Below, piece by piece: positions 18,182 to 39,275 of a stretch of DNA of 64,000 bases. Source of the DNA: Pelagibacteraceae bacterium (GTDB lineage Bacteria; Pseudomonadota; Alphaproteobacteria; HIMB59); contig VTPN01000001.1 in the NCBI GenBank assembly GCA_008638215.1, positions 1-64,000 on the forward strand. The letters run 5' to 3'. The notes under the pieces were generated by a model. That model made no database searches. It was not told the origin of the DNA and saw only the letters and a program-made list of their open reading frames with translations. The position numbers and the translations under genes were made by a program. Every line of letters begins with the position of its first letter. Positions within the stretch are counted from its first letter, which is position 1.

Positions 18182-18201
18182 ATGTTAAAGTTTTATTAAA
18201 T
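18182..18201 (-). promoter_or_regulatory. Candidate Pho box of plcP-agt
   Basis: The minus strand reads ATTTAATAAAACTTTAACAT, about 29 bases before the plcP ATG. The core ATAAAACTTTAACAT is identical to the pstS element. Two half-sites of 7 bases with 4-base AT spacers fit the PhoB pattern. It touches the start codon of the divergent SET-domain gene. Confidence 0.65.
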
Positions 18202-18700
18202 GGCGAAAGATCAAAATCTATATATTCGCAAAAATTCGAAAATTCATGCAAATGGACTTTTTGCAAAATATGACATCGAGCCTGGCGCTAGAATTATTGA
18301 ATATCGAGGCTTAAAAATAACTAAAGCTCAATCTGATAAGATTGCGGATGTGCATATAGCAGCAAATAAAAAGCAGGGAACCGTAGGAGCTGTTTATATT
18401 TTTACCTTAAATGAACGATACGATATCAATGGAAAAGTAGCGTGGAATTTAGCAAAATATATTAACCACTCTTGTGATCCCAATTGTGAGACCGATATTG
18501 TGCATGGTAAAATTTGGATTAATGCTATTAAAAAAATTAAAAAAGGTGAGGAATTGACCTATGACTACGGATATGACATGGATTGTTTTGAGGACCATCC
18601 CTGTCGCTGTGGCTCCAAAAACTGTATTGGTTATATTGTTCGCAGCAATTTACGTTGGCGCGTAGAAAAAAAGATAAACAATAAAAAAAACAAGAAATAA
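18200..18700 (+). CDS. SET-domain protein (putative lysine methyltransferase)
   Basis: A 166-residue stand-alone SET domain, the SAM-dependent protein-lysine methyltransferase fold. Visible motifs are the N-terminal GLFAKYDIEPGARIIEYRG, the core YINHSCDPNCETD, the GEELTYDYGYD segment with the catalytic tyrosine, and a post-SET zinc motif with cysteines in HPCRCGSKNCIGY. Such bacterial proteins have no settled substrate. The gene is divergent from plcP with 46 bases between starts, and the candidate Pho box abuts its ATG, so it may be co-regulated or repressed with plcP. A basic Lys/Asn-rich tail ends the protein. Confidence 0.85.
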   Translation: MAKDQNLYIRKNSKIHANGLFAKYDIEPGARIIEYRGLKITKAQSDKIADVHIAANKKQGTVGAVYIFTLNERYDINGKVAWNLAKYINHSCDPNCETDIVHGKIWINAIKKIKKGEELTYDYGYDMDCFEDHPCRCGSKNCIGYIVRSNLRWRVEKKINNKKNKK

Positions 18701-18755
18701 TTTAACAAAATTTTCATACATCGCTGAATCTTTTTCCTTTAAAATAAAAATAGAT

Positions 18756-19181
18756 TTGAACAAAGATTCGCTAAAATCTGTTGTAAAGAAATCCATCGCT
18801 CCTCAGATTATTCTCAGCAAAAAATTGAAAAAACGTCAACTTGAACAAGAAAAGAAACTTAAAAGAATTGAAAAAAAATTTAATCTTTTTGAAAAAACAG
18901 TTTTAAAAATTAAAGATCAAGTGAAACAGTATGCTCAAATTTTTCAAAACGATTTAAATTTACAGCAAATCAATAAACAATTTAATGGACTGAATGTCGA
19001 ACCCGAACTGCATTCCTTTCAAAGTGAGATCCGTTCATTGAAAGAAGAAATAGCTACCCTCAAAGACTCCATTACCATCAAACTGGATGATCATCAAAAC
19101 AAAGTAAACACCTTTTATTCTCGATTAGATGAAATAGACTTTCAAAATTATCGACCAGCAAGAATTAAGCGCATTTATTAA
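18756..19181 (+). CDS. Hypothetical coiled-coil protein
   Basis: A 141-residue frame beginning with TTG; no clear SD. The first 60 residues are very basic (many Lys in KKLKKRQLEQEKKLKRIEKK) and heptad-like, predicting a long helix or coiled coil; a second helical stretch (SEIRSLKEEIATLKDSITIKLDDH) follows, and the end is basic (RPARIKRIY). No signal peptide or membrane segment. It lies between the SET-domain gene and dgkA, 6 bases before dgkA, so it is probably cotranscribed with dgkA. I do not recognise a family; a nucleoid or membrane-scaffold role would be a guess. Confidence 0.6.
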   Translation: MNKDSLKSVVKKSIAPQIILSKKLKKRQLEQEKKLKRIEKKFNLFEKTVLKIKDQVKQYAQIFQNDLNLQQINKQFNGLNVEPELHSFQSEIRSLKEEIATLKDSITIKLDDHQNKVNTFYSRLDEIDFQNYRPARIKRIY

Positions 19182-19187
19182 ATAATC

Positions 19188-19547
19188 ATGGATCGCAAAA
19201 ATAAAAATATCTTCGACGCTTTTTGGTGTTCTATTGATGGATTAAAAATTTTATATGAAGAAAAAGCTGCGCGACGAGAACTTCTTCTATTTATTTTTTC
19301 AATTCTTTATATTTTTCTAATGCAACCTGATTTAAATATGATCATTTGGCTTATAGTGTTGCCTTTATTAATTTTAAGCATTGAAGCACTTAATACGGGA
19401 ATTGAATACACTTGTGATAAGATCACAATGGATAGGTCAAATAAAATTAAAAAAGCCAAAGATTTAGGATCTGCTGCAATTTTTTTAGCGTTGGTTGCCT
19501 ATAGTGCAGTGGTTATAATAGATATTAGTAAATTATTTTTAAACTGA
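19188..19547 (+). CDS. dgkA: Diacylglycerol kinase DgkA
   Basis: Small integral-membrane diacylglycerol kinase, 119 residues with three membrane helices. The family motif IEALNTGIEYTCDKIT holds the catalytic and metal-binding glutamates and aspartate, followed by KAKDLGSAAIFLAL. It phosphorylates diacylglycerol to phosphatidic acid. In this setting, next to plcP and agt, it may return diacylglycerol released by PlcP to phospholipid synthesis when phosphate is available again. That link is inferred from proximity. Confidence 0.92.
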   Translation: MDRKNKNIFDAFWCSIDGLKILYEEKAARRELLLFIFSILYIFLMQPDLNMIIWLIVLPLLILSIEALNTGIEYTCDKITMDRSNKIKKAKDLGSAAIFLALVAYSAVVIIDISKLFLN

Positions 19548-19585
19548 CATTCCAATTAAGATCATTTTTTCAACAAATTAATCAC

Positions 19586-19627
19586 TGCTTTTCGGAATTA
19601 AAAAAAGCATCAGCTCCTCAATGCTTT
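19586..19627 (+). other. Alternative hairpins upstream of the aquaporin gene
   Basis: TGCTTTT (19586-19592) can pair with AAAAGCA (19603-19609). The second arm, as AAAGCAT (19604-19610), can instead pair with ATGCTTT (19621-19627). The two stems exclude each other. No full U-tract follows, so an attenuator role is only a possibility. Confidence 0.3.
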
Positions 19628-20373: not shown

Positions 20374-20399
20374 CTTCTTTAAAACTTAAAAAGCTATTT

Positions 20400-20879
20400 T
20401 TAAAACAAACTTCCAATTAGTTTTAGTTCTTCTATTTGAAATTTTTTGGTTTTGCTATATTTTTCAACCATTGCGTGGGTTCGTTTCGCAAGAATTGTAA
20501 AAATTCGCTGAAATTCATTTTCAATTTCTTCTTCACTGCCCTTAAACTTAGCTGGATCTTCAACGCCCCAATGCACTTTAGGTGCGCTGCTTAAATAAAC
20601 AGGGCAAGATTCACCAGCAGCATTATCACAAACTGTGATCACTAAATCAAAATTTATATCACTGAATTCGTCCCAAGATTGGCTTTTGTAATCTGTTTCA
20701 AAAATACCTGATTTTTTTAAAGTTTTTAAACTCATTGGATGAACATAGCCTGTGGGTTTACTACCGGCACTAAAGGCTTGAAAATCATCTTTACCAAAAT
20801 GATTGATTAGCCCTTCTGCCATAATTGAACGACAAGAGTTACCCGTACAAAGGACTAAGATTTTTTTCTTATTATTCAT
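20400..20879 (-). CDS. arsC: Arsenate reductase, low-molecular-weight phosphatase type
   Basis: Thioredoxin- or glutaredoxin-coupled arsenate reductase of the low-molecular-weight tyrosine phosphatase fold, about 159 residues. The P-loop CTGNSCRS (C-x5-R) lies near the N-terminus and the general-acid aspartate in VEDPAKF. A resolving cysteine is plausible in VCDNAAGESCPVY. It overlaps the 3' end of phoB by 8 bases (ATG at 20879, with a TTG at 20882 as alternative), so it is read as the last gene of the pst-pho unit. This couples arsenate detoxification to phosphate starvation, when high-affinity uptake also brings in arsenate. Confidence 0.85.
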   Translation of the reverse strand: MNNKKKILVLCTGNSCRSIMAEGLINHFGKDDFQAFSAGSKPTGYVHPMSLKTLKKSGIFETDYKSQSWDEFSDINFDLVITVCDNAAGESCPVYLSSAPKVHWGVEDPAKFKGSEEEIENEFQRIFTILAKRTHAMVEKYSKTKKFQIEELKLIGSLF

Positions 20880-21564
20880 CAAAATCTAGGGAATAGCCAG
20901 CCGACCTAACTGTGCGAATTATATCTTTCTCTTCATTTTTATTTAGTTCTTTTCGAAGTCTACGAATGTGGACATCAACAGTTCTTAACTCTACATTGAC
21001 TTGATTGGGCCAAATCTTATTTAATATCTGCTCTCGAGAGAATACTCTTTGTTTATTCTTTAGTAGGAAAAATAAAATATTAAATTCTGTTGGGCCAAGG
21101 TTAAGTCGCCTTTCTCCTCTGTAGGCTTTTTTTTGAACGGTGTTTATTTTAATTTCATTAAAAATAAGATTTTCTTGATCTTGATTTGACTGACTGGTTC
21201 TTTTTAAAATTGCTTTAACCCTTGCGATAAGTTCACTAGGTAAAAAAGGCTTGGTAATATAATCATCTAATCCGCTTTCAAAACTTATGATCTTATCTTG
21301 TTCGGAGTTTTTTGCTGTAAGCATTAATATGGGCAGGTTTTTATACTCTTGCTTATTTCGAATTCTTCTAAGAACCTCTAAGCCCGAAAGACCCGGTATC
21401 ATCCAATCCAAAATAACAAAATCAGGCATAAATGTATCAAGATGTGATAAGGCGTCTTCTCCATTATGGACAACTAAATATTCGAAATTATTTTTTTTTA
21501 AATGCAAAGAGATAAGGTCTGAAATAGACTGATCATCTTCGACTACTAATATTTTAGGAAACAA
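20872..21564 (-). CDS. phoB: Phosphate regulon response regulator PhoB
   Basis: OmpR/PhoB-family response regulator, 230 residues. The receiver domain has the acidic pair Asp10/Asp11, the phosphoacceptor Asp53 (VILDWMIPGLSG) and the conserved KPF; the C-terminal winged helix (RRLNLGPTEFNILFFLL to VDVHIRRLRKEL) binds DNA. It begins with TTG. Its place after phoU and the phoR gene upstream of pstS identify it as PhoB. It is the likely reader of the shared promoter element described at 18182, 26878, 35251 and 39256. Confidence 0.95.
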   Translation of the reverse strand: MFPKILVVEDDQSISDLISLHLKKNNFEYLVVHNGEDALSHLDTFMPDFVILDWMIPGLSGLEVLRRIRNKQEYKNLPILMLTAKNSEQDKIISFESGLDDYITKPFLPSELIARVKAILKRTSQSNQDQENLIFNEIKINTVQKKAYRGERRLNLGPTEFNILFFLLKNKQRVFSREQILNKIWPNQVNVELRTVDVHIRRLRKELNKNEEKDIIRTVRSAGYSLDFDE

Positions 21565-21569
21565 TTTTT

Positions 21570-22226
21570 TTAAGAATTATTGTACTTGCCTTCAATTAAG
21601 AAATGTACTTCTTCCATAATGTTGGTTACGTAATCTCCAATACGCTCAATACCTTTTGAAATTTGGATTAAAGCTAAGGAGTCGGGAATAAAATCATCGT
21701 GTTCTTTCATATAAGAAAGGACGTCTTTGATAAAACTAGCATGCAATTCATCAATAACATGATCTCGTTCGGCTATTTTATCAGCATCTGCAATTTTTCT
21801 ATCAAATAAGCAGTTCAATGCATCATGTGTCATAAGAGAAGCCTTTCCCCCTAGTATCTCCAGTTTTTCAATAAGTTGGTCAGGGATATTAGTGCTTACT
21901 CTATATCCTTTTTTTGCAACAGTTGTTAGGTGATCCCCTATTCTTTCAAGATCTCTAATGATCTTAATTGAGCAAAATAAAAATCTCAAATCGTCTGCCA
22001 TTGGCTGTCTCATTGCAATAATTTGAAAAACTAAATCACTAATTTCATGATTTAGCTGATTTATTAAGCTATCTTTTTCAATGACGGTATTTGCTAAATT
22101 TTGATCTCTTGAAGCAACAACTTTTAAGGCATCGCTAAATTGTTGTTCTAAAATTGATCCCATCTTAACTAGCTTTTCATTAATTGAATTAATCTGATTT
22201 TCGTAATTTTTATCTGTATGAGGCAT
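21570..22226 (-). CDS. phoU: Phosphate signalling protein PhoU
   Basis: Helical peripheral membrane regulator of 218 residues that links the Pst transporter to the PhoR kinase and limits phosphate uptake. Two three-helix PhoU repeats are visible, with the metal-binding helix motifs around IKIIRDLERIGDHLTTVAKK and ISKGIERIGDYVTNIMEE. It lies 2 bases after pstB and 5 bases before phoB. Confidence 0.95.
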   Translation of the reverse strand: MPHTDKNYENQINSINEKLVKMGSILEQQFSDALKVVASRDQNLANTVIEKDSLINQLNHEISDLVFQIIAMRQPMADDLRFLFCSIKIIRDLERIGDHLTTVAKKGYRVSTNIPDQLIEKLEILGGKASLMTHDALNCLFDRKIADADKIAERDHVIDELHASFIKDVLSYMKEHDDFIPDSLALIQISKGIERIGDYVTNIMEEVHFLIEGKYNNS

Positions 22227-22228
22227 TA

Positions 22229-22987
22229 TTATCCAAACCTTCCTGTAATATAGTCATTAGTTTTTTGGTTATCTGGTTTCGTAAAAATTTTAGTAGTATC
22301 TCCCTCTTCAATTAGATTGCCTAGGTGAAAAAAAGCTGTTTTATCAGATACTCTAGCTGCTTGTTGCATAGAATGAGTTACTATAATAATAGTATAGCTT
22401 TCCTTGAGTTCGGTTATTAATTCTTCGATAATTGAGGTGGCAATAGGGTCAAGAGCAGAACAAGGCTCATCCATTAAAATTACTTCTGGTTTCACCGCAA
22501 TTGCACGGGCAATACATAGTCTTTGCTGCTGACCGCCGGACAAGCTTGTTCCTAAATCATCTAATCGATCTTTAACTTCTTCAAATAAACCTGCTTTTTT
22601 TAAAGCAGTAACTACAATTTCATCCATTTCATTTTTTTTATCAGTAAAACCGTGAATTCTAGGGCCATAAGCAACATTATCGAATATTGATTTTGGGAAT
22701 GGGTTGGGTTTTTGAAAAACCATTCCAATTTTTTCTCTTAAATGTTCTACTTCTATTTCATTACTATAAATGTCAGTATCGTTCATGTAAATTTGACCTT
22801 CAACTTTACAAATCTCAATTACATCATTCATTCTGTTTAAACATCTTAAAAAAGTAGATTTACCACATCCTGAAGGCCCAATAAGAGCCGTTACTTTATT
22901 TTTCATAAAGTCTAAACTAATGTTATTGATAGCTTGTTTGTCACCATAATGAACGTTCACGTTTTTAGTAGAAATAATATTTACCAT
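22229..22987 (-). CDS. pstB: Phosphate ABC transporter ATP-binding protein PstB
   Basis: ATPase of the high-affinity phosphate importer. The 252 residues have Walker [10 protein letters not shown] (37-45), the Q-loop region [19 protein letters not shown], the signature LSGGQQQR and Walker [14 protein letters not shown], ending with the PstB-typical [17 protein letters not shown]. It overlaps pstA by 7 bases and is followed by phoU. Confidence 0.97.
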
Positions 22988-24231
22988 TTAACTTCAACCT
23001 TTCTTCTTATTAGTATAGCGGCGAGATTCATCACAATTAAAAAAAGAAGTAGCAACATGATACCAGCAGAAGTCTTTTCAATAAAGCCTCGTTCAGCACT
23101 CTCAGACCAAAGATAAATTTGAGATGGTAAACCAGTTGCTGGATCTAAGGGACCTCCTGGAATTTCCATTACAAATGCCACCATACCAACCATTAATAGG
23201 GGGGCCGTTTCGCCTAAAGCTTGGGCCATTCCGATAATTGTTCCTGTCAGAGTTCCTGGAAGAGCTAAAGGGACTACGTGATGAAAAGTTGTTTGCACTT
23301 TTGTTGCGCCAAGAGCAAGGGCGCCGTGTCTTATTGAGGGTGGTACCGCGCGCAAAGAAGACCTACAAGCTATAATTATGGTAGGTAAGGTCATAAATCC
23401 CAGCGTCAAACCTCCAACCAGGGGTACTTGAAAAGGCATATTAAAAACTCCAATTAACATTCCAAGTCCTAATAATCCAAATACTATAGACGGAACTGCA
23501 GCAAGATTATTGATATTAACTTCTATTAAATCTGTCATCTTACCTGGCTTTGTAAACTCTTCTAAATAGACTGACGCAAATAAACCAATAGGAAATGAAA
23601 ATACTAAACAAATCATTAGCGCATAAAGGGATCCCATAATAGCGCCTAATATTCCTGCCGTTTCAGGATCACGAGAGTCTCCATTAGTGAAAAACCAAAA
23701 ATTAAATGTAGAACCAATTTTTTCCTTTGAAGTCAATTCATCTAAAATTGTTAACTGATAATCATTAATTTTTCTTTGAGACTCAGGGACATTTCTAGGG
23801 TAATTGCCCTTTACAATTTGATCAAGATCTGAGGACGCTGATATTTCTAAAGTTACTGTATTGTTGATTACTTCTTTATTTTTTAAGAAATAATCTCTTA
23901 GTTGATAATCAAATCGTCTTGTATACATTTCTCTAATTTTTATAAATTCATCTTCGCTAAGATTTTTAAAATTAAAATCAATTACTCCATCTGCTAATTT
24001 TTCAAAAGATGCTCTTGATATTTCTTTATCAGAGGAGTTTTGATCTACATTCATTAATTCAGGGTCAAAAAATATATCTGTCTCAATTGTTGTTCTAAAG
24101 AAAGCCCCACTCCCGGTGGAGAAAATTTTGATTATTAATAAAGAAACAAATAACAGTGATAAAAAAACTCCAACTTGCCCATAGAATTTAAAACGTCGCT
24201 CAGCGCTTAATCTTTTTTTAATATTACTCAT
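22981..24231 (-). CDS. pstA: Phosphate ABC transporter permease PstA
   Basis: Inner-membrane permease of the Pst system, 416 residues. It is longer than the roughly 300-residue E. coli form because of a large soluble insertion after the first membrane helix (about residues 45-175), a form common in alphaproteobacteria. The transport domain with the EAA-like loop ([21 protein letters not shown]) and the motif [15 protein letters not shown] follows. It overlaps pstC by 8 bases and pstB by 7. Confidence 0.95.
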
Positions 24232-25660
24232 ATTTTTCTCTATATTTTCTGACGATAACTACTGCGATTACATTTAAAATTAATGTCATAACAAATAAGG
24301 TCAAACCCAAAGCAAATGCAACTAAAGTTTTTGGATTGGTAAATTCCACATCTCCAATTAAGGCAGTAACTATTTGTGTCGTAATTGTTGTTGCTGGCTC
24401 TAATGGGTTAAATGTTAAATTTGCTCTCAAGCTAGCCGCCATTACAACAATCATGGTCTCACCTATAGCTCTTGAAATTGCTAATAGAAAAGAACCCATA
24501 ACGCCTGGCAACGCAGCCGGTAAGATAACCTTTTTAATTGTTTCAGATTTGGTTGCGCCAAGAGCATAAGACCCCTCTCTAAGAGGATTGGGAACTGATC
24601 TAATTACATCATCGCTCAATGAAGACACAAAAGGAATAATCATGACCCCCATAGCTAAACCAGCGGCCAAAGCGCTCTCAGCAGAAATATTGATGCCAAC
24701 TGAGTCACCAAACTGTTTTAACATTGGCGCTAAAGTTAAAGCTGCAAAAAATCCATAAACTACAGTTGGAATACCAGCCAAAATTTCAATTATTGGCTTT
24801 GCAATATCTCTGACTTTTGGCGAAGCATATTCAGCCAAATAAATTGCAGAGGCTAAACCAAGAGGCAATGCAACGAACATTGCGACAGAGCCAACTAACA
24901 AGGTTCCCGTAAGTAGAGGAATCCATCCAAAGGCATCTTTGAGAACTTCTTTATCAACTGTTTCAGCACTACTAATTACCCATGCACGATTAGGATTCCA
25001 CGATGTGTTAAAAAAGAAATCCATAAAATTTACAAATTGAAAGAATTTAATAGCTTCAAAAATAAGAGAAAAGAAAATTCCAAAGGTTATTAAAATTGCA
25101 ATAATTGAACTTAATCTAATGATGTTGATAATTATTTTTTCTACTAAGGGTTGAACATTTAACTTTTGATTAATTAGCCTAGATACCAATAATCCTATGA
25201 TGATTGGTAATAAAATAAAGACTACAACGACAGACCAACCATATATGCTATCAAAAGAAGCAAGATTTTTTGCAGCAATTTTTTCACTTTCAGACGACAT
25301 ATTTAAAAGTGATAGCTGGCCTTTCATAAGATCTACTTCAGGAATATTAACTATAAGCGATAAATTTGTGATTTTATTAAGTATTAATCCTAGTTTAGAG
25401 TCAGACCAATTTGCTAAATCAGGAAATAACGTAGGCGTCATCACATACATTTCTTCAAAAGTAGGTTTATATATTAATAAAAAAAACCAAATTAACAGTG
25501 AGGGCAATAAAACAATTAAAACTAAAAAGTAACCATAGTAGTCAGGAAGAGATGCTAGTCTTGCGTTATTAGAAAACTTTATTTTTAAAGCCCTATTTTT
25601 TCCAAAATAAAAAAACCCATACGACACAGCAAACAATAATAAAAGGGCTAAATATTGCAT
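24224..25660 (-). CDS. pstC: Phosphate ABC transporter permease PstC
   Basis: Second permease of the Pst system, 478 residues, with an N-terminal extension of about 150 residues (two membrane helices and a periplasmic segment) before the conserved transport domain, as in other alphaproteobacteria. The EAA-like loop is ALGATKSETIKKVILPAALPG; the motif AIGETMIVVMAA follows. An intrinsic terminator lies between pstS and this gene, so it is probably made at lower level than PstS. Confidence 0.95.
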   Translation of the reverse strand: MQYLALLLLFAVSYGFFYFGKNRALKIKFSNNARLASLPDYYGYFLVLIVLLPSLLIWFFLLIYKPTFEEMYVMTPTLFPDLANWSDSKLGLILNKITNLSLIVNIPEVDLMKGQLSLLNMSSESEKIAAKNLASFDSIYGWSVVVVFILLPIIIGLLVSRLINQKLNVQPLVEKIIINIIRLSSIIAILITFGIFFSLIFEAIKFFQFVNFMDFFFNTSWNPNRAWVISSAETVDKEVLKDAFGWIPLLTGTLLVGSVAMFVALPLGLASAIYLAEYASPKVRDIAKPIIEILAGIPTVVYGFFAALTLAPMLKQFGDSVGINISAESALAAGLAMGVMIIPFVSSLSDDVIRSVPNPLREGSYALGATKSETIKKVILPAALPGVMGSFLLAISRAIGETMIVVMAASLRANLTFNPLEPATTITTQIVTALIGDVEFTNPKTLVAFALGLTLFVMTLILNVIAVVIVRKYREKYE

Positions 25661-25687
25661 TGGTAGATTTTTACCTTACAGATTTAT

Positions 25688-25714
25688 AAAAAAAGGGGTA
25701 GGAAATCTACCCCC
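25688..25714 (-). terminator. Intrinsic terminator between pstS and pstC
   Basis: On the minus strand GGGGTAG (reading CTACCCC on the other arm) forms a 7-bp stem with a 5-base loop followed by seven T residues. It lies about 23 bases after the pstS stop and 28 bases before pstC. Partial termination here would favour binding protein over permease. Confidence 0.85.
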
Positions 25715-25736
25715 TTGATAAATTAATTGTTAGTGG

Positions 25737-26807
25737 TTATGGGCAAAGCTTTCCTGAGAAAGCGTAACCAGCATTTTTAAGTGGGTGTTCTTTATTTGCA
25801 CACGATTCAATGCTGAAACCCATTGGATCTAAAGTATCAGTGATGTTTCTAACTCTTGAGATTAGCTCAGGAACCATCGGGGCAGCGCCAATTTTTGTTA
25901 GGTAACCATTATCACCAATCGCCTCTTCACTTGCCATCATTTGTGCAAATTCCTGAATACCAGGCACAACACCAATGTGGTCCGCTTTTAAGTAGATGAA
26001 TAATGGTCTTGCCATTGGGTACTCATAAGAAGCAATTGTTTCACCTGTTGGTAAAACTCCTTCAACGCTCGCAGCTTTTAGCTTGTCACCGTTATCTTTA
26101 AGATAAGAGTAACCAAAGTAACCAAAACGCTGGTTATCTTCGTTCAGTTTTTGTGCGATTAGAGTGTCGTTCTCACCCATTTCAATGACTCTTCCGTCTT
26201 CTCTGTAAAGAACGCAGTCATCTTCCCTATCTTCAGGAAGTTCACAACCTTTTTCCATTACACCACCGTCAAAAGCATCTCTTGTTCCTGATGATGGAGG
26301 GGCAACTAGTACTTCAATTTTGTAATCAGGAAGATCGCTTCTGATTTCGTTCCATGATGAGTATGGGTTTTCTACTATTTTACCGTCAACCACAACATAT
26401 GCTGCCATAGCTTTCCAAATATCTTTTCTTGTTAGAGCGAAATCTTCAGCTGTGTTTGAGTGCGAAAATGTAATTCCGTCGTTAGCCCACATTACTTCGA
26501 TCACGTTTGTTACACCGTTCTCTAGGCAAAGTGCTGCTTCACTAGCTTTCATGTTTCTAGATGCACCAGTGATATCTGGGTGCTCAACACCAACACCAGC
26601 ACAGAATAACTTCATTCCACCACCAGTACCAGTTGGATTGTAGGTAGGCGTTTTGAATCCGGACTCACCCAATCTTTGAGCATTTACAGTTCCATATGGG
26701 TAAACAGTAGATGAACCTACTATATTTATTTGATCCCTTGCAAAAGACTCAGCAGCAAAAAGTGTTGAAACAACAAGCGCTAATAAAGTCACAAATGGTT
26801 TTTTCAT
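25737..26807 (-). CDS. pstS: Phosphate-binding periplasmic protein PstS
   Basis: High-affinity phosphate-binding protein of the Pst importer. It has a cleavable signal peptide (residues 1-23, ending AESFA) and 356 residues in total. The phosphate-binding motifs GSSTVYPY (31-38) and GTGGGMKLFCAG are present, as is PPSSGTRDAFDGG. The gene has its own promoter region with an extended candidate Pho box overlapping the end of phoR, and a good SD (AAAGGAAAAC). A terminator follows it, as expected for an abundant binding protein. Confidence 0.96.
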   Translation of the reverse strand: MKKPFVTLLALVVSTLFAAESFARDQINIVGSSTVYPYGTVNAQRLGESGFKTPTYNPTGTGGGMKLFCAGVGVEHPDITGASRNMKASEAALCLENGVTNVIEVMWANDGITFSHSNTAEDFALTRKDIWKAMAAYVVVDGKIVENPYSSWNEIRSDLPDYKIEVLVAPPSSGTRDAFDGGVMEKGCELPEDREDDCVLYREDGRVIEMGENDTLIAQKLNEDNQRFGYFGYSYLKDNGDKLKAASVEGVLPTGETIASYEYPMARPLFIYLKADHIGVVPGIQEFAQMMASEEAIGDNGYLTKIGAAPMVPELISRVRNITDTLDPMGFSIESCANKEHPLKNAGYAFSGKLCP

Positions 26808-26843
26808 TATTGTTTTCCTTTGATTTTCGATTAATGAGGAAAA

Positions 26844-26898
26844 AATACTTTAGTTAAGTAAATGAAATATTAAAGAAATGTTAAAGTTTTATGACAAG
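26844..26898 (-). promoter_or_regulatory. Tandem Pho box of pstS
   Basis: On the minus strand the sequence reads as five consecutive 11-base units: TTGTCATAAAA, CTTTAACATTT, CTTTAATATTT, CATTTACTTAA and CTAAAGTATTT. This matches PhoB half-sites (7 bases plus a 4-base AT spacer). The first unit overlaps the phoR stop codon. No -35 element is needed in such activated promoters. Confidence 0.72.
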
Positions 26899-29022: not shown

Positions 29023-29048
29023 AATTAAATATTATAAAATAAATATAT

Positions 29049-30029: not shown

Positions 30030-30990
30030 GGTGAAGGTGACAAGAGATAAAATGATTATCTTCTATTTCTTTTATAAGTGGTGACTCTTTATCACATTTG
30101 TTATTTATAAATTGAGAACATCTATTTTGAAAAACACAACCTTGAGGACGATCTTTTAACAAAGGAACTTCTCCCCCGATAGGCAAAAGTTTTTTTTGAA
30201 AATTTTCAATATTAGGTGACGACTCAATAAGTGCTTTTGTATAGGGGTGTTGAGGATTAGTTAATACCTGGTAAACCGTGCCGCTCTCTACAATTTTTCC
30301 CATATACATAATCAAAATACGATCAGCTGTCTGGGCAAGAAGAGCTAAGTCATGAGTTATAAAGATTACGCCCATGTTACGATCTTGAACTTCTTTTTTA
30401 ATGAGGTTTATAATTTGTGCTTGAATAGTAACATCTAAAGCTGTTGTAGGCTCATCTGCGATTAAAAGCTTTGGATTGGTAGATAAAGCCATTGCGATCA
30501 TGGCTCTTTGTCTCATGCCCCCCGAAAATTCATAAGAATACTGATCAATTAAGTTTTTCGCATTTGGAATTCCAACGCTAGTCAGCGCTTCAATAGAGCG
30601 TTGACGCGCAGCTTCATCGGATAGCTGCTCATGTATTTGTAGTTGCTCAATCATCTGATCACCAATACGTATAGCAGGAGCAAAACTTGCCATAGGTTCT
30701 TGAAATACCATTGAAAAAATTTTACCCCGATATGGGATCATTTTTTCATCATCTAGTTCAAGTAGGTTTTGATTTTCATATAACACCCTACTGTTTTGAT
30801 CGTATATGGCATTTTCATCATTAAGTTGCATTAAAGATTTAGCGGTGATGCTCTTTCCAGAGCCAGACTCACCAGCAATTCCCAAAATCTCACCTTGATC
30901 AACATTAAAGCTGACATCATCTAAAGCCAATAGTTGCCCCTCATCAGTATCAAAATGAATTTTTAACTTTTCTATTTTTACTAAAGTCAT
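30022..30990 (-). CDS. Oligopeptide-type ABC transporter ATPase (OppD/DppD-like)
   Basis: Second ATP-binding subunit, 322 residues. Walker A GESGSGKS (40-47), signature FSGGMRQRAMIAMAL, Walker B LLIADEPTTALDVT and the C-terminal cysteine motif GCVFQNRCSQFINNKC. The pairing of two different ATPases is standard for this importer family. Its ATG overlaps the end of the permease gene by one base. Confidence 0.88.
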   Translation of the reverse strand: MTLVKIEKLKIHFDTDEGQLLALDDVSFNVDQGEILGIAGESGSGKSITAKSLMQLNDENAIYDQNSRVLYENQNLLELDDEKMIPYRGKIFSMVFQEPMASFAPAIRIGDQMIEQLQIHEQLSDEAARQRSIEALTSVGIPNAKNLIDQYSYEFSGGMRQRAMIAMALSTNPKLLIADEPTTALDVTIQAQIINLIKKEVQDRNMGVIFITHDLALLAQTADRILIMYMGKIVESGTVYQVLTNPQHPYTKALIESSPNIENFQKKLLPIGGEVPLLKDRPQGCVFQNRCSQFINNKCDKESPLIKEIEDNHFISCHLHHE

Positions 30991-32084
30991 TACTTTTGAA
31001 CTCGATAAGGATCCGCAGCATCTCTAATACCATCGCCGACATAAACAAAAGCCATGACTAATGCGATAAAAAATAATGTAGGAATATAGTACCACTGGTA
31101 GTTAAGAAGAACGTCTGTTTTGGTTGCGTTCTCTAACATTACACCAATACTATTGACAGGGTCTTGTAGTCCAAGTCCTATAAAGCTTAAAGATGTTTCG
31201 GCTAAAATCATATATGGAAAGTTTATTAAGGTATCAACTATTATATAACTAGTAAAACTTGGCAATAAGTGCTTATAAATTATTTTAAATGTACTTGTTC
31301 CGCATAGTTGGGCCGCAAGGATATATTCTTGATTTCGCTCTGAAAGAAGATGGGTTCTAAGTCGACGAGCCAAGGTAGGAAAATCTACCAACCCTAAAAT
31401 AGTTGCGATATAAAAGAAACGCATTTCTGCACTCCAGGTATCTGGAATAAAGGCTGCCAGAGCCATAAATAGTGGAATTGGAGGGATTGTTCGGATTGCA
31501 TCTGTAATAGCTGATAAAATACTGTCTACCCATCCGCCAAAATATCCGGCCAAACCTCCCACCAAAAGAGACATAAAAAGTTTGATCACCAAGCCCAACA
31601 GACCGACGGCCAAGGAAATAAAAATTGCCTTTAATGTCCTTGAAAAAATATCTTTACCAGTTTCGTCGGTGCCAAAAATATGAATTTGCCCTTTATCAAC
31701 ACCAAATAAATGTCTATCAAAGGTTATTCCTAAGAAAGTATACTCCCATCCTTTGACAAAAAAATAAACGTAGCGTCTTTCTTCTTTGTTGACTGTTTCT
31801 ACCCAACGAAAATTGGTTTCAATTGATCTTGTTCTCTCCGTGGAGTACAAAAACGGTCGAATAGAAAAACCATTTTCATCCCAAAATCGGGGTATTTGGG
31901 GTGCCCCATTAATATAATCCTTGTCCGCGCCTGCGATTGTTGGTTTACAGGGAGATAAAAAGTCGGAAAAAATACCCAAGGAAATAAGAAAAAGGAGAAA
32001 AAAGGTAGCTATTTTAGCGGATTTATTTTTTTTAAAGCGCTGAAAGACTAATTGTTTTTGTGAGAGAATTTCTGTTCGGCTCAT
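30990..32084 (-). CDS. Oligopeptide-type ABC transporter permease (OppC/DppC-like)
   Basis: Inner-membrane permease of 364 residues. One N-terminal helix (about 25-45) is followed by an unusually long periplasmic segment of about 100 residues (to about 135), then five helices with the EAA loop (AAQLCGTSTFKIIYKHLLPS) and the C-terminal DGIRDAADPY. The long periplasmic part resembles Yej- or microcin-type permeases rather than plain dipeptide permeases. It overlaps the partner permease by 4 bases. Confidence 0.87.
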   Translation of the reverse strand: MSRTEILSQKQLVFQRFKKNKSAKIATFFLLFLISLGIFSDFLSPCKPTIAGADKDYINGAPQIPRFWDENGFSIRPFLYSTERTRSIETNFRWVETVNKEERRYVYFFVKGWEYTFLGITFDRHLFGVDKGQIHIFGTDETGKDIFSRTLKAIFISLAVGLLGLVIKLFMSLLVGGLAGYFGGWVDSILSAITDAIRTIPPIPLFMALAAFIPDTWSAEMRFFYIATILGLVDFPTLARRLRTHLLSERNQEYILAAQLCGTSTFKIIYKHLLPSFTSYIIVDTLINFPYMILAETSLSFIGLGLQDPVNSIGVMLENATKTDVLLNYQWYYIPTLFFIALVMAFVYVGDGIRDAADPYRVQK

Positions 32085-33091
32085 TTTTGATTTAACATTC
32101 CTTTGCGCGCCCTAGGGTCAATGATAGATAGGACAATATCAGTTATAAAGTTGATTATAATAATAGTTGCGGTCATTAAAAAAATAATTGCCCCGGCTAA
32201 TTGCTGGTCATTTGAGCGAACTAGTGCTTGAAGAAGCAAAGAACCAGCATCAGTAATAGCCAAGATGAGCGCAACAATCGGTAAATCATTAAAAATACGA
32301 TTTAAATCAAAGCCAATTGAATTAATTAGAGGACTTAATGCATGGCGAGTTGGATAATTTAATAATAATCTTTTTCCAGTAACTCCTCTTGCTTTAGCGG
32401 CTGTCACATAGAGTTTTTTATTCTCATCGATTACTAATGCTTTAACAGTTTGAAGCGCAAGGGCGGTAGCCGCCCAACCTAAAATAAAAATTGGAAGCCA
32501 AGCATGTGCTAAAAAGTTTAGAAATTTTTTCATGCTCCAAGGAGCATCTTGATACTCAGGAGAAAACAGACCGGTTAAAGTATCGCCAAAATAAATAGTA
32601 GAGAATAACATAACCGCTAAAGCTACTAAAAAATTTGGAAGCGCCAAACCCAGATAACTAAAAAACTTAAGAGAACTATCTAAAATTTTATTTTTCGTTG
32701 TAGCGGAGATAATTCCAAATGGAATGGCCAAACTATAAGCCAGGATTAAAGCAACTATACATATGCCAAGGGACATTCCAAATTTTGGAATTAAAAGAGT
32801 GCTAATATCTACTCGCATAATACAACTAGTTCCAAAATCACCTTGAAATGCATTTAAAACCCAACTGCTATATCTAATTAGGAAAGGGCGATCTAACCCT
32901 AACCTTCTTTCTTCAGCGGCAATATCTTGAAACGTAATATTTTGTCCGCTACTTTGTTTAAAAGACAAATATCTCTCTGCACAATTTCCTGGCACTAATT
33001 CCATCAATGAAAAAACAATAAAGCTTATTAGTAAAAGCGTAATGATGGATAAGCCAAATCTGACGGCTATGAACTGGTAGATATTTTTCAT
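32081..33091 (-). CDS. Oligopeptide-type ABC transporter permease (OppB/DppB-like)
   Basis: Partner permease of 336 residues with six membrane helices, the EAA loop TAAKARGVTGKRLLLNYPTRHALSP (quoted in part) and the C-terminal LSIIDPRARKG. It follows the binding-protein gene after a 66-base gap that contains a 26-base perfect palindrome, so it is probably expressed less than the binding protein. Confidence 0.87.
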   Translation of the reverse strand: MKNIYQFIAVRFGLSIITLLLISFIVFSLMELVPGNCAERYLSFKQSSGQNITFQDIAAEERRLGLDRPFLIRYSSWVLNAFQGDFGTSCIMRVDISTLLIPKFGMSLGICIVALILAYSLAIPFGIISATTKNKILDSSLKFFSYLGLALPNFLVALAVMLFSTIYFGDTLTGLFSPEYQDAPWSMKKFLNFLAHAWLPIFILGWAATALALQTVKALVIDENKKLYVTAAKARGVTGKRLLLNYPTRHALSPLINSIGFDLNRIFNDLPIVALILAITDAGSLLLQALVRSNDQQLAGAIIFLMTATIIIINFITDIVLSIIDPRARKGMLNQK

Positions 33092-33106
33092 TTATATAAA
33101 TAAGAA

Positions 33107-33132
33107 ATACGGACAGTTTAAACTGTCCGTAT
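33107..33132 (-). other. 26-base perfect palindrome after the binding-protein gene
   Basis: ATACGGACAG-TTTAAA-CTGTCCGTAT is a perfect inverted repeat between the 683-residue binding protein and its permease. As RNA it forms a 10-bp stem with a 6-base loop; an AT-rich stretch but no clean U-tract follows. It is a likely mRNA stabiliser or partial terminator. Confidence 0.75.
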
Positions 33133-33157
33133 GTAAATTAATTATAAGTTTCTTTGA

Positions 33158-35237: not shown

Positions 35238-35270
35238 ATTATAGTCAATTCTGTTAAATTTTTATTACAA
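35238..35270 (-). promoter_or_regulatory. Candidate Pho box and -10 of the oligopeptide-type operon
   Basis: On the minus strand TTGTAATAAAAATTTAACAG (35270-35251) differs from the pstS/plcP element at few positions. A -10 TATAAT (35243-35238) follows after 7 bases, with no need for a -35. The perfect SD AGGAGG comes later. Confidence 0.62.
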
Positions 35271-35394
35271 AAATTAATATTTTTAATAAAAACTGTGCAT
35301 ATTAAATGCTTGAAAATATTGGGTATTCAGGAAGTGGTTTGTTCCAATTAAAAATATTGTAAAGAAAGAATAGATTAAAGAAGAAGAAATTGAT

Positions 35395-37062
35395 TTAAGC
35401 TGTTTTAAATCTCCAATTTTGAAAACGTGACAAGATATTTTTTGTGAAGACCACATAAGCAATCCTTACTGCGGCATTTGTAAAAAAGATCAGCATTCCC
35501 ATTGCTGCAGCTGGAGCGATATCTCCCGCATCATCCATATTAAGCACAGCTACTGAAGCCAATGTGGTTTTAGGTCCATAGATAAAGACGACTGCCGATA
35601 CGGTAGTCATTGCATTGACAAAGAAATAAATACCAATTTCAAATATTGCAGGAAGACTTATTGGAACAGTAACTGAAAAAAACATTTTATAAAAGGGTTG
35701 CTTTAAAGAAGAGGCTACACTCTCAAATTCATTATCGATTTGTTTTAATGCCGTGAGCGCCGTTAGGTGAGAAACTGTATAAAAGTGAGTAATAGTAGAA
35801 ATTACTAAAATAGCCATTGTTCCATAAATAAAATTAAATGGATTATTGGGGTTATTAAAAAAGAAAATATAAGCTAATCCTAAAACCATTCCTGGTATGG
35901 CCATGGGCATCATTGATAGTAGGTGCATCATAATTCTGGCTGGCTTAAATGATCGAGCTTTTTCAACGAAGTAGGCAGTTGTAAAAACAATTAGAGTGCC
36001 AAAAAGAGCAGCAAAGGAAGCCATTTTGATTGAATTATAATAAGAGTCCCAACCTCCCCCATCCATTAAATCAAATTGATAATTTTTTAATGATAAGGAG
36101 AGATTGTAGGGCCAAAATTTAATTAAACTTGCATACAAGCACATACCGACAACCGTCAAAATACATATTGAAATGATTATGCAGTAAACAAGCATGATAG
36201 TATCTAGAACTTTGTTTTTTTTAGGTTGATACACAACTGAGCGAGCGGTCAAAATTGAAACTTGTTTTTTTTGAACAATTCTATCCACAACAAAAGCAAG
36301 CATGGCAGGTATTAAAAGGACAACACTAACTACTGCTCCCATTTCAAAATTTTGTTGCCCGATAACTTGTTTATAAACATCAATTGCTAAAACGTTATAT
36401 TGTCCACCCACAACTTTTGGGATGCCAAAGTCAGTTATTACGAGAGTAAAAACTACAAAACAGGCGCTCATTAATCCGTATTTTGCTGAAGGAATAGTAA
36501 CTGTAAAAAAAGTTTTTATTGGACCAGCGCGCAATACGGTTGCTGCTTCATATAATCTTGCATCAGCGATTGATAAAGCAGTAATAATTATTAATAACGC
36601 ATGAGGAAATGTATAAAAAACCTCAGCTATGACAATCCCAATAGGTCCATAAATACTCTTCCCCATCAAAAGTTCTTTAAATATCCCTTGATTACCAAAT
36701 AAATAAATTAAAGCTATGCCCGCTAATAAAGAGGGTAAAAGTATGGGGATCATTGCAATAGAGCGAAAAAAAGGTTTGGCAACCATGCAACTTCGGGTTA
36801 AGGCAAATGCGAACATGAAAGATAGGCTTACTGAAATGATTGTTGAAATAATAGAAACGTAAAGACTATTATAAATAGAGTAAAAAAGTGAAGGATTAGA
36901 AAAGTAGTATTTATAATTTTCTAATCCAATAAACAAACCATCTTTATTTTCAATACTTTTAGATAAGATTGCATACATTGGCAAAGCCAAAGACACCAAG
37001 ATATAAGTAGCCGCAATTCCGATAAAGAAAACGGTTAAATAATCGTCTTTGCTTTTTTTCAT
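35395..37062 (-). CDS. Phosphonate-type (2-aminoethylphosphonate) ABC transporter permease, fused
   Basis: Inner-membrane permease of about 555 residues that fuses two six-helix transport domains in tandem, each with its EAA-like loop (ATVLRAGPIKTFFTVTIPSAK and VASSLKQPFYKMFFSVTVPIS in part). This architecture is shared by iron(III) and putative 2-aminoethylphosphonate permeases. The cluster (binding protein, single ATPase, fused permease) next to phnY and phnA favours 2-aminoethylphosphonate or a related aminophosphonate. The ATG at 37062 is preferred; a TTG at 37068 is possible. Confidence 0.8.
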   Translation of the reverse strand: MKKSKDDYLTVFFIGIAATYILVSLALPMYAILSKSIENKDGLFIGLENYKYYFSNPSLFYSIYNSLYVSIISTIISVSLSFMFAFALTRSCMVAKPFFRSIAMIPILLPSLLAGIALIYLFGNQGIFKELLMGKSIYGPIGIVIAEVFYTFPHALLIIITALSIADARLYEAATVLRAGPIKTFFTVTIPSAKYGLMSACFVVFTLVITDFGIPKVVGGQYNVLAIDVYKQVIGQQNFEMGAVVSVVLLIPAMLAFVVDRIVQKKQVSILTARSVVYQPKKNKVLDTIMLVYCIIISICILTVVGMCLYASLIKFWPYNLSLSLKNYQFDLMDGGGWDSYYNSIKMASFAALFGTLIVFTTAYFVEKARSFKPARIMMHLLSMMPMAIPGMVLGLAYIFFFNNPNNPFNFIYGTMAILVISTITHFYTVSHLTALTALKQIDNEFESVASSLKQPFYKMFFSVTVPISLPAIFEIGIYFFVNAMTTVSAVVFIYGPKTTLASVAVLNMDDAGDIAPAAAMGMLIFFTNAAVRIAYVVFTKNILSRFQNWRFKTA

Positions 37063-37071
37063 TCCCAATTA

Positions 37072-38133
37072 CTAACTAGAAACAATTTTTAAAGAATTTG
37101 GATTGAGGGAAAAAGAAATTTGTGAGTTTTTAGCTATTGAGCTTTGTTCATTATTGTCGATGGGCAAATGACATATAAGGATTTCTTTTTGATCATTGTA
37201 TTGAACCTCAATCTGACCGATAGAATATGAGCCCAAAAATTCTATTTCTAATACCCTGCCCTGAATAATATTAGGTTCACTTAATTGTTTTGAAATTTTG
37301 ATATCCTCTGGGCGTATAGCAACTGTAATCTCTTCACTCATCAAAGGCTCACTACAATCAAACTCTTGTCCAAACATTTTAATTTTATTTTCAGATATCT
37401 TTTTGGCGGAAATTAAATTTGTTTTACCAATAAAATCAGCTGTAAAACTGGTTTCAGGTTTAGAGTAAAGCTCTTGAGGAGTGCCAATTTGTTCAATCAC
37501 ACCTTTGTTCATTAAAATTATACGGTCGGCCATTGACAACGCTTCCTCTTGATCATGAGTAACCATAATCGTAGTAACACCTAATTTTTTTTGAAGGTTT
37601 TTAATTTCTAATCTTAAAAACTGTCTTACTTTTGCATCCAAAGCAGACAAAGGTTCATCAAGTAATAAAAGTCCAGGAGATGGTGCCAACGCTCTAGCAA
37701 GAGCAACTCTTTGTTGTTCTCCTCCTGAAAGTTGTGCTGGATACTTATTTTTATGAGACTCTAAACCGATTAACGACAGCAGTTCGTTAAGTCTATTCTC
37801 AATAATTTCTGAACTTTGATTGCGAGTTTGCAGCCCAAATATAATATTTTTTTTAATAGTTAAATTAGGAAAGAGAGCATAAGACTGGAAGACGATTCCG
37901 AAATCTCTTTGATCCGGAGGAAGATTAGATATGGTAACACCCTTTTGAACGATTTCTCCTGAGTTTTGTTCTTCTAACCCGGCTATAACGCGCAGCAAAG
38001 TCGTTTTTCCGCATCCCGAAGGACCAAGAATACAAACTAACTCTCCTTCATTCACACTAAAAGATGCCTCTTTTAAGGCTTGAAAAGAGCCAAATGACTT
38101 ACAAATTTTAGATACTGTTAAATATACTGACAT
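37072..38133 (-). CDS. Phosphonate-type ABC transporter ATP-binding protein
   Basis: ATPase of 353 residues with Walker A GPSGCGKT (37-44), signature LSGGEQQRVALARAL, Walker B LLLLDEPLSALDAKVR and a C-terminal TOBE domain (from about 270). It belongs to the CUT1/Fbp-like group that serves iron(III), polyamine and 2-aminoethylphosphonate importers. It lies between the binding protein and the fused permease. A 28-base palindrome separates it from the binding-protein gene. Confidence 0.84.
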   Translation of the reverse strand: MSVYLTVSKICKSFGSFQALKEASFSVNEGELVCILGPSGCGKTTLLRVIAGLEEQNSGEIVQKGVTISNLPPDQRDFGIVFQSYALFPNLTIKKNIIFGLQTRNQSSEIIENRLNELLSLIGLESHKNKYPAQLSGGEQQRVALARALAPSPGLLLLDEPLSALDAKVRQFLRLEIKNLQKKLGVTTIMVTHDQEEALSMADRIILMNKGVIEQIGTPQELYSKPETSFTADFIGKTNLISAKKISENKIKMFGQEFDCSEPLMSEEITVAIRPEDIKISKQLSEPNIIQGRVLEIEFLGSYSIGQIEVQYNDQKEILICHLPIDNNEQSSIAKNSQISFSLNPNSLKIVSS

Positions 38134-38142
38134 AATGGCCTA

Positions 38143-38170
38143 TGCTAAGCTTATATATATAAGCTTAGCA
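38143..38170 (-). other. 28-base perfect palindrome after the binding-protein gene
   Basis: TGCTAAGCTTATAT and its exact reverse complement abut to form a 28-base perfect palindrome between the binding protein and its ATPase. As RNA it gives a stem of about 12 bp. No U-tract follows on the minus strand, so mRNA stabilisation or processing is more likely than termination. Confidence 0.75.
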
Positions 38171-38186
38171 AAAAGTATTATTTTTA

Positions 38187-39206
38187 TTATTGTGGCTCAG
38201 ATTTAGAGTCATAGCGATTTTGCCATTCCTCTAAAATTCTTGATCTATTTGAAGCCGCAAATGCAAAATCATTGTCAATCATGCTATCGACTAGATTTTC
38301 AGGAAAATGCTCAACTGGCTTAGCGATACCAGGAATACCAACAACAGCATAAGCATCATTGTACATCTGGTTAGCCTTTAAGCTTATGGACCAGTCAGCC
38401 AATGTTTTTGCTGCTTCTAGGTTTTTAGTTCCTTTGATAATTGCTGTTGCTTCCATATCCCATCCAACACCCTCTGATGGAACAATAATTTCAATAGGAG
38501 CACCGTCTGCTTTAGATTTTGCACCTCTAAAAGCAAAGGAAATTCCGATTGCAACTTCACCTGCAGCAGCTTGCTTACAAGGCTTTGATCCGGAGTGGGT
38601 GTAGTTGTTGATGTTTGCGTGTAAAGCGTCCATATATGCCCAACCGCCATCTTCACCAAATAGCTGAAGCCAACTTGAAACATCTAGGAATCCAGTTCCA
38701 GATGAATTTGGGTTTGGCATGTTAATGTGACCTTTATAAACAGGATCTGTTAGGTCTTGCCAAGAACTTGGCATAGGAAGTCCACTCTTTTCTCCTTCAA
38801 CTGTATTAAAGCATACAGCCGCAACCCAAGCGTCCATACCCGTCCATGTTGCCGGATTAGCTGAGTCTCTAAATTTAGGATCAAGATCGCCTATGCCCTT
38901 TGGAGAGTATGCTTCTAACATTCCCTCTTCTTTTAAAAGCATAAGACTAGTTGCGGCTAACCCCCAAACAATATCCGCTTGTGGATTATCTTTTTCAGCA
39001 AGCAATTTTGCGGTAACAATACCAGTTGAGTCACGAACCCAATTAATTTCAATATCGGGGTGGTCTTCATTAAATGTTGCTGCATATTTTTTTAGATCTT
39101 CTGCTTCTACTGCTGTGTAAACAGTAAGTTGTGTTTTCGCCATGGCGGATACGGAACCGAATAGCAAGACACATAGCATCAAGAATAATGATTTAACTTT
39201 CATCAT
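38187..39206 (-). CDS. Phosphonate-type ABC transporter substrate-binding protein
   Basis: Periplasmic binding protein of 339 residues with a signal peptide (about 1-23, LFLMLCVLLFGSVSAMA) and the family-1/iron(III)-like fold (QLTVYTAVEAEDLKKYAATF, then DIVWGLAATSLML). The group includes both iron(III) and 2-aminoethylphosphonate binding proteins. The usual iron-coordinating tyrosine pair is not obvious, and the cluster context favours an aminophosphonate. It has a perfect SD (AAGGAGG), a -10 TATAAT and a candidate Pho box. Confidence 0.8.
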   Translation of the reverse strand: MMKVKSLFLMLCVLLFGSVSAMAKTQLTVYTAVEAEDLKKYAATFNEDHPDIEINWVRDSTGIVTAKLLAEKDNPQADIVWGLAATSLMLLKEEGMLEAYSPKGIGDLDPKFRDSANPATWTGMDAWVAAVCFNTVEGEKSGLPMPSSWQDLTDPVYKGHINMPNPNSSGTGFLDVSSWLQLFGEDGGWAYMDALHANINNYTHSGSKPCKQAAAGEVAIGISFAFRGAKSKADGAPIEIIVPSEGVGWDMEATAIIKGTKNLEAAKTLADWSISLKANQMYNDAYAVVGIPGIAKPVEHFPENLVDSMIDNDFAFAASNRSRILEEWQNRYDSKSEPQ

Positions 39207-39235
39207 TATATTCCTCCTTAATAATAATAATTTAT

Positions 39236-39275
39236 ATTATAATCCTATTGGTCATATGTTAAACCTTTATTAAGG
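39236..39275 (-). promoter_or_regulatory. Candidate Pho box and -10 of the phosphonate-type transporter
   Basis: On the minus strand CCTTAATAAAGGTTTAACAT (39275-39256) resembles the pstS and plcP elements; a third 7-base unit (GACCAAT) follows after 4 bases, and a -10 TATAAT lies at 39241-39236. It is in the gap between this operon and the divergent HAD gene. Confidence 0.55.

Follow-up and report, generated by a model that had tools for sequence, protein, structure and literature searches.

Four short plus-strand elements in a 64,000-nucleotide stretch of DNA from a Pelagibacteraceae bacterium of the HIMB59 lineage (GenBank assembly GCA_008638215.1, contig VTPN01000001.1, positions 1 to 64,000; hereafter the window) are very probably boxes for the phosphate regulator PhoB which, as judged from the sequence, would turn on four operons under phosphate scarcity, namely pst, plcP with its glycosyltransferase neighbour, phnS2T2U2 and an oligopeptide (Opp)-type ATP-binding cassette (ABC) transporter operon. 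The window, with a GC content of 34%, is part of a genome of 1,234,213 bases on 72 contigs that is 92% complete, and holds clusters of the pst, PhoB and PhoR-like kinase genes (20400-28082), of plcP and a GT4-type glycosyltransferase gene (16376-18153) and of the Opp-type ABC genes ending in a gene for a PHP-domain protein (28108-35209). An earlier reading of the letters without database searches (the sequence-only reading) had placed the elements at 18182 (plcP), 26878 (pstS), 35251 (Opp-type operon) and 39256 (phnS2), where all four are found exactly. Each fits the proposed common form MTGTTAAANNTTTAT, and the 15 identical bases attributed to the plcP and pstS elements, ATGTTAAAGTTTTAT, are equally present.

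Read toward the genes, the elements are CTTGTCATAAAACTTTAACAT (pstS), CATTTAATAAAACTTTAACAT (plcP), TTTGTAATAAAAATTTAACAG (Opp-type operon) and ACCTTAATAAAGGTTTAACAT (phnS2). They consist of direct repeats of a unit T(G/T)T(C/A)A(T/C) with an 11-bp period, for example TGTCAT-N5-TTTAAC, with CTTAAT at phnS2 deviating at the first base and a third unit, TTTAAT, at pstS 11 bp further on, and the suggested agreement of the half-site spacing with PhoB boxes thus holds at all four sites. An alternative inverted-repeat reading of ATAAANNTTTAACA was rejected, as substitutions in relatives preserve the gene-facing direct units. The elements had also been said to lie in short gaps upstream of minus-strand genes; their distance of 29-71 bp from these genes is in line with this, but that of pstS runs into the end of the phoR frame (26889-28082). 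In contrast to the Escherichia coli box, the downstream unit is mostly TTTAAC and AT-rich, nearer to the TTAACA units of Bacillus PhoP. A Pho box is expected about 10 bp before the -10 hexamer, and a -10-like hexamer follows the second unit after 10 bp at plcP (TATTAT) and after 9 bp at the Opp-type operon (TATAAT). The plcP element, situated in a 46-bp gap (window 18154-18200), abuts the start codon (18200) of a divergent gene for a SET-domain protein, which PhoB bound at this box could also block or drive.

The evidence that carries the assignment to PhoB most strongly comes from the genus, for which all 52 supplied genomes were searched; weak matches to the Opp-type binding protein (27-36% over part of the protein) and to PhnS2 (24-28%) were dropped before counting. 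PstS homologues occur in 39 of the 52 genomes, of which 30 upstream loci were taken, plus eight more by coordinates. The pstS element was found in 29 of the 30 taken loci, with only 40 bp of upstream sequence in the remaining one, the plcP element in all 30 plcP upstream regions and the phnS2 element upstream of all six true PhnS2 orthologues though the flanks diverge. Substitutions retain the half-site form, TTTAAC being replaced by TTTCAT in G001 and by TTTAAT in G003 and G004 (TGTCATAAATCTTTAAT), while CTGTCAT forms the first unit in G002 and G007 (ACTGTCATAAAACTTTAACAT). With a threshold of E 1e-60, a PhoB orthologue was identified in 35 of the 52 genomes; 33 of these also possess pstS, and the box is present in all 32 assessable upstream regions (that of G036 is cut). 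Conversely, the pstS box is absent in all three genomes with pstS that yielded no match for either a PhoB orthologue or PhoR (G019, G020 and G042, with best scores of 5.8, 5.8 and 0.6), while G021 was not assessable. This joint absence of box and regulator, with G019 and G020 counted as one case, is the strongest argument that the element serves PhoB. Equally, all 30 genomes with PlcP have PhoB. In five relatives (L038, L049, L054, L059 and L064), an ABC ATPase gene is preceded, at a distance of 68 bp, by the same element, ATAAAGTTTTAACAT (site 1501-1515), with the two scanned ATPases (L038, L054) being UgpC-like (380 bits, cut-off 432), and this operon is likely a further member of the Pho regulon in the genus.

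A matrix, which the sequence-only reading had proposed to build from the four sites as a check, was instead trained on relatives only (unique sequences: 7 pstS, 7 plcP and 4 phnS2), with none from this genome or from the Opp-type operon. The four sites take ranks 1-4 in the 64 kb (30.2, 25.9, 17.9 and 16.5), with the next match at 10.8 and thus a gap of 5.7 bits. These ranks are kept upon training without pstS or without plcP, whereas the phnS2 site drops to rank 6 upon training without phnS2. The exact form MTGTTAAANNTTTAT has five matches in the whole genome, a post hoc count as the pattern was derived from the sites themselves, and four of these are the sites discussed here; the fifth (C48:4713) lies inside an open frame that appears RNase J-like from its translation, and the pattern read backwards as a control gives one genome match. 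With one mismatch allowed, the window holds 5 matches versus 1.6 expected, a number reached by 2 of 100 shuffles. The two weaker sites, those of the Opp-type and phnS2 operons, do stand out by position, as simulated stretches of 120 bp before a gene reached their scores in only 2 and 3 of 4000 cases, respectively. A loose genome search (18-mer, 3 mismatches) was uninformative, with 458 matches versus 633 for the reversed control. Loci were taken for 30 of the loose matches; among the 26 that are not the four sites, 23 are inside frames and three are intergenic (L013, 15.3; L034, 13.7; L024, 7.2) and may be due to chance. The first of these (L013 1501-1518, same genome) lies 20 bp before a gene for a short, weakly dual-specificity-phosphatase-like protein, and no gene follows the second within the stretch.

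The candidate PhoB regulon proposed by the sequence-only reading gains from the presence of PhoB and a PhoR-like kinase in the same cluster, from the retention of the element in relatives and from the pstS box tracking PhoB/PhoR. Although both proteins score below the equivalog cut-offs (Table 1), PhoB and PhoR are the best match of each, and the DNA-binding domain of PhoB aligns with the solved structures of E. coli PhoB (3t72, 1qqi, 1gxp) with an E of 4e-22. A segment RTVDVHIRRLRK, which we take to be the recognition helix, shows no difference from the E. coli PhoB of 1gxp/3t72. From the sequence, position and conservation of the elements and the co-occurrence of the pstS box with PhoB/PhoR, we infer binding by PhoB, activation and a response to phosphate. 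Upon phosphate scarcity, PhoR would phosphorylate PhoB, which would bind the repeats head to tail in the promoter region and recruit RNA polymerase. Phosphate uptake by Pst, replacement of phospholipids by glycolipids by PlcP and the glycosyltransferase, aminoethylphosphonate uptake by PhnS2T2U2 and an Opp-type ABC importer, the family of which is often encoded near phosphonate catabolism genes, would subsequently be turned on. The four boxes define a testable candidate regulon for a streamlined marine lineage, and their degenerate AT-rich form could escape a scan with the plain E. coli consensus.

Table 1. Putative Pho boxes and associated genes in the window (bit scores are given with model cut-offs where available).
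Feature	Position	Strand	Basis or remarks
plcP Pho box (putative)	18182..18202	-	Half-sites TTTAAT (18195-18200), TTTAAC (18184-18189); TATTAT 10 bp beyond
pstS Pho box (putative), three half-sites	26869..26898	-	TGTCAT (26891-26896), TTTAAC (26880-26885), TTTAAT (26869-26874)
Opp-type ABC/PHP operon candidate Pho box	35251..35271	-	TGTAAT (35264-35269), TTTAAC (35253-35258); TATAAT 9 bp beyond
phnS2T2U2 operon Pho box (putative)	39256..39276	-	CTTAAT (39269-39274), TTTAAC (39258-39263); 6/6 phnS2 orthologue upstream regions
GT4-type glycosyltransferase adjoining plcP, glycolipid synthase candidate	16376..17368	-	Family scans; no displayed NCBIfam model above cut-off
PlcP/LpxH-like metallophosphoesterase	17365..18153	-	Pfam Metallophos; LpxH models below cut-off
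ArsC-like / low-molecular-weight phosphatase fold protein, end of pst operon	20400..20882	-	TIGR02691 93.2 bits, cut-off 174.3; Pfam LMWPc
PhoB response regulator	20872..21564	-	TIGR02154 287.6 bits, cut-off 296.2; DNA-binding domain aligned to E. coli PhoB
phoU, pstB, pstA, pstC	21570..25660	-	Named from reading translations
pstS phosphate-binding protein	25737..26807	-	Named from reading translation; homologues in 39/52 genus genomes
PhoR-like sensor kinase	26889..28082	-	TIGR02966 196.4 bits, below cut-off 334.2
PHP-domain metallohydrolase, CehA/McbA family	28108..29022	-	NF038032 91.9 bits, cut-off 80
Opp-type ABC ATPases (29049-30990) and permeases (30990-33091)	29049..33091	-	Best NCBIfam matches below cut-offs
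Family 5 substrate-binding protein, 683 aa	33158..35209	-	Pfam SBP_bac_5; nearest solved sequences 5ipw and SPH1118 7ver
phnU2, phnT2, phnS2, aminoethylphosphonate ABC transporter	35395..39206	-	TIGR03262, TIGR03265, TIGR03261, all above cut-off
FAD oxidoreductase (TIGR03364), phnY, phnA	40844..44630	-	All above cut-off

Inclusion of the Opp-type ABC/PHP operon in the regulon, as the sequence-only reading had predicted, is likely yet less certain than that of the other operons. The site at 35251 takes rank 3 in the window with the matrix not trained on this operon, and relatives among bacteria at large were gathered as 114 stretches, of which 80 loci were kept. Pho boxes were scanned in 63 non-redundant loci from 77 (L144, L145 and L190 were left out), with generic weights made by hand from the E. 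coli consensus, gene starts taken as the starts of tblastn matches and a self-set threshold of 15. At this threshold, gene-facing boxes occur in 10 of the 63 distant upstream regions (for example L171, L184, L174 and L164), in none of the 63 reversed, in 2 of 661 upstream regions of other frames of the same loci and, on average, 0.07 times in 60 Markov shuffles; at 14.5 the numbers are 14 gene-facing, 2 reversed and 7 in the control. Of the ten box-bearing loci, only L167, L181 and L184 include a phosphonate gene within the sequence covered; the evidence for PhoB control and that for a link to phosphonates are therefore in part independent. That the pstS, plcP and phnS2 boxes are real while the Opp element is a chance AT-rich match, with the operon controlled otherwise, is the alternative that survives best, although we consider it unlikely. 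It gains from the 53 of 63 distant homologues without a box at the threshold, from a score inside the range of random AT-rich windows and from the sole close relative. Within the genus, the 683-aa binding protein occurs only in this genome and in G024 (90% identical), and no Pho box was found before the G024 operon (L096, best score 4.9), which is located on a different contig from the pst genes of G024, beside genes for a phosphonoacetaldehyde hydrolase (TIGR01422, 311 bits, cut-off 220) and a TIGR03364 oxidoreductase (319 bits, cut-off 285). A chance match is, on the other hand, hard to reconcile with the rarity of such a score among simulated upstream stretches, with the TATAAT hexamer that follows, with gene-facing boxes of the distant homologous operons far above controls and with the phosphonate genes near the homologous loci described below.

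Other observations weigh against PhoB boxes at all four operons. By score alone, the Opp and phnS2 sites are unremarkable, AT-rich random sequence matching them about once per window; they are not distinctive in this respect because the best score per simulated first-order Markov window is 13.7-23.7 (six 64-kb windows) and two coding matches elsewhere in the genome score 15.5 and 16.0. The conservation of the plcP element is hard to separate from that of the divergent SET gene's start codon, the TATAAT at phnS2 is 16 bp away rather than 9-10, and pstS is without a clear -10 hexamer at that distance. The box-less genomes G019, G020 and G042 are 79, 81 and 66% complete, and the upstream sequences of the first two are identical, which leaves at most two independent cases. 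Furthermore, boxes occur where PhoB was not detected. G025 has a pstS box and matches PhoR, whereas PhoB was not found there, with the contig ending before that part of the cluster; in G023 (55% complete), with a pstS box and a PhoR fragment, the contig is cut on the phoR side but should reach the usual place of phoB, so that its end does not account for the PhoB orthologue not being found, which makes it a mild counter-case; and G009 and G017 (65 and 54% complete) have the phnS2 box without a detected PhoB. Equally, aminoethylphosphonate transporters can be phosphate-insensitive in other organisms, according to PMC8316502.

Alternatively, the common TTAACA might represent a constitutive sigma-70 -35 hexamer or an AT-rich promoter context unrelated to PhoB, a reading that seems very improbable. 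TTAACA agrees with TTGACA at five of six positions and a TTAACA-17-TAATAT pair exists at phnS2, yet such pairs are as frequent in the region (21) as in shuffles (21.4), the -10-like hexamer 9-10 bp from the repeat at plcP and the Opp-type operon is too near for a -35 hexamer, the upstream repeat is conserved as well, and genomes in which PhoB and PhoR were not detected lack the pstS element. Least probable of all, if only by a little, is that the conserved element is the target of a different OmpR-family regulator encoded in this genome, as, although OmpR-family DNA-binding domains have direct-repeat sites in common and a further weaker PhoB match (30-34% identity) occurs in five of eight relatives examined, all four operons consist of phosphorus genes, phoB is within the pst operon and the further PhoB-like match is present in G042 with its box-less pstS upstream region. 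The four elements are, in all likelihood, genuine Pho boxes of an AT-rich form, ordinary in kind.

The substrate of the Opp-type transporter can be approached through its genomic neighbourhood. At least one phosphonate-catabolism gene is present in 31 of the 80 homologous loci (stretches up to 22 kb), with PhnW in 16, PhnY in 9, PhnA in 10, PhnX in 17, PbfA in 11, the FAD oxidoreductase in 10 and PhnS2 in one, upon hand-set identity floors of 35% for PhnX, 45% for PhnY and PbfA, 30% for the FAD oxidoreductase and 40% for LysR. A PehA-like hydrolase of the sulfatase/phosphodiesterase fold, related to phosphonate monoester hydrolases/phosphodiesterases, is encoded in 39 of the 80 loci, a count made with no identity floor and with matches down to 31%, some of which may be other sulfatases; the two PehA-like proteins scanned are only family-like (NF045661, 440 and 416 bits, cut-off 900). 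Any phosphonate gene, PehA-like gene or PHP gene (the latter in three) is found in 50 of the 80 loci and none in 30, of which 12 are shorter than 10 kb. As the 80 loci total 1.41 Mb and pathway genes usually occur about once per genome, these genes would, by this argument, be strongly over-represented. The binding protein encoded at 33158-35209 matches only SBP_bac_5 and Opp-Nik type models and none of the known families of phosphonate-transporter binding proteins, and was therefore filed under no known phosphonate transporter. Its nearest solved relatives are 5ipw, SPH1118 (7ver), presumably a binder of pectin oligosaccharides, and then an alpha-galactoside binding protein. The His/Asp/Glu motifs of the PHP protein are invariant in four aligned sequences, its predicted structure has a mean pLDDT of 53 and no solved relative was found at E 0.01. 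In one distant locus (L187), the PHP gene adjoins a LysR regulator and an enolase-type frame, as read from translations, and since no phosphonate gene was found there it gives no support for a phosphonate role. In four loci (L147, L149, L199 and L210), the Opp operon is followed by a gene that weakly matches transporters of the drug/metabolite type; next after it in L149 is an aldose-1-epimerase-like gene, a hint that the substrate contains a sugar.

An oligosaccharide-like binding protein, a PehA-like hydrolase and enzymes of phosphonate metabolism would, hypothetically, all fit a substrate that is a sugar-like or esterified phosphonate. Tentatively, the Opp-type operon might encode an importer, widespread among alphaproteobacteria, for phosphonates that are esterified or linked to sugars. 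The PehA-like hydrolase or, in this genus, PHP would then free the phosphonate intracellularly as a substrate of PhnW/PhnX or PhnY/PhnA, and PhoB would control the operon in several lineages; hypothetically, the PHP enzyme would thus stand in for PehA. A study on marine isolates (PMC5649143) describes phosphonate esters in dissolved polysaccharides, postulates that alkaline-phosphatase-like enzymes cleave the ester and draws attention to a phosphonate monoester hydrolase that its isolates possess. Assigning the Opp-type ABC/PHP operon to the scavenging of organic phosphorus is moderately supported by the genomic comparisons and is the useful and newer result, with the boxes linking an unassigned, oligopeptide-annotated transporter to phosphorus supply; if its substrate is a phosphonate ester, the transporter would provide a route for the phosphonate esters carried by marine dissolved polysaccharides.

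Pho boxes in general consist of 11-nucleotide direct repeat units, CTGTCAT in E. coli, as stated in a review (PMC4415409), and the elements share with the E. coli box the direct repeats, the 11-bp period, the position upstream of pstS and, in some relatives, ACTGTCATAAAACTTTAACAT, with the PhoB segment RTVDVHIRRLRK being identical as well. Putative Pho boxes in marine bacterial plcP gene clusters, often with a glycosyltransferase neighbour as observed here, are already in print, although the text of that work does not name HIMB59 and the excerpts at hand do not give the form of the motif (PMC4796936). A 2023 paper describes a phosphate island, fGIp, of HIMB59 (AEGEAN-169), the pst, PhoR-PhoB, tyrosine phosphatase, LpxH, glycosyltransferase, diacylglycerol kinase and glycerol facilitator genes of which resemble those found here, and suggests phosphonate uptake as a possible role of an ABC transporter that is annotated for oligopeptides and encoded on one of its phosphonate islands (PMC10734472); its phosphonate islands encode C-P lyase, in contrast to phnS2T2U2/phnY/phnA here, and the words 'Pho box' and 'promoter' are absent from its text. 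Aminoethylphosphonate transporters, among them AepXVW, AepP and AepSTU, come in phosphate-sensitive and phosphate-insensitive forms, AepX being PhoBR-dependent in Pseudomonas putida (PMC8316502), so that PhoB control of phnS2T2U2 is plausible but no rule. The binding protein of the operon at 39206 matches PF13343, the AepX family, whereas the Opp-type binding protein differs from the AepX/PhnS2 types in belonging to Pfam SBP_bac_5. In the literature searched, with subscription papers mostly outside coverage, no report of a PhoB-controlled Opp-type phosphonate importer was found. Compared with these sources, the boxes are ordinary and the newer part is the transporter assignment, at which PMC10734472 similarly hints.

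With regard to gene identities, the transporter previously called phosphonate-type ABC is more precisely named, by its model matches, the PhnS2T2U2 aminoethylphosphonate transporter, as its subunits pass all three curated cut-offs (525.4 bits, cut-off 392.75; 486.5, cut-off 457.7; 801.3, cut-off 593.25). The LpxH models match the protein encoded at 17365-18153 with 51.1 and 43.4 bits (cut-offs 134 and 190.35) and no PlcP model is among the matches; the glycosyltransferase neighbour fits PlcP. Two genes close the pst operon (window 19726-20882), one for a MIP-family channel (Pfam MIP; TIGR00861, 63 bits, below cut-off) and one for the ArsC-like protein, which the Wzb model matches with only 19.7 bits compared with the 93 bits, equally below cut-off, of TIGR02691. 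This pair may serve arsenate detoxification, protecting against arsenate imported by Pst, rather than represent the Wzb and glycerol facilitator of PMC10734472. Finally, a strong hairpin, ATACGGACAGTTTAAACTGTCCGTAT, at 33107-33132 between the binding-protein gene and the first permease gene of the Opp-type operon perhaps lowers permease expression relative to the binding protein.

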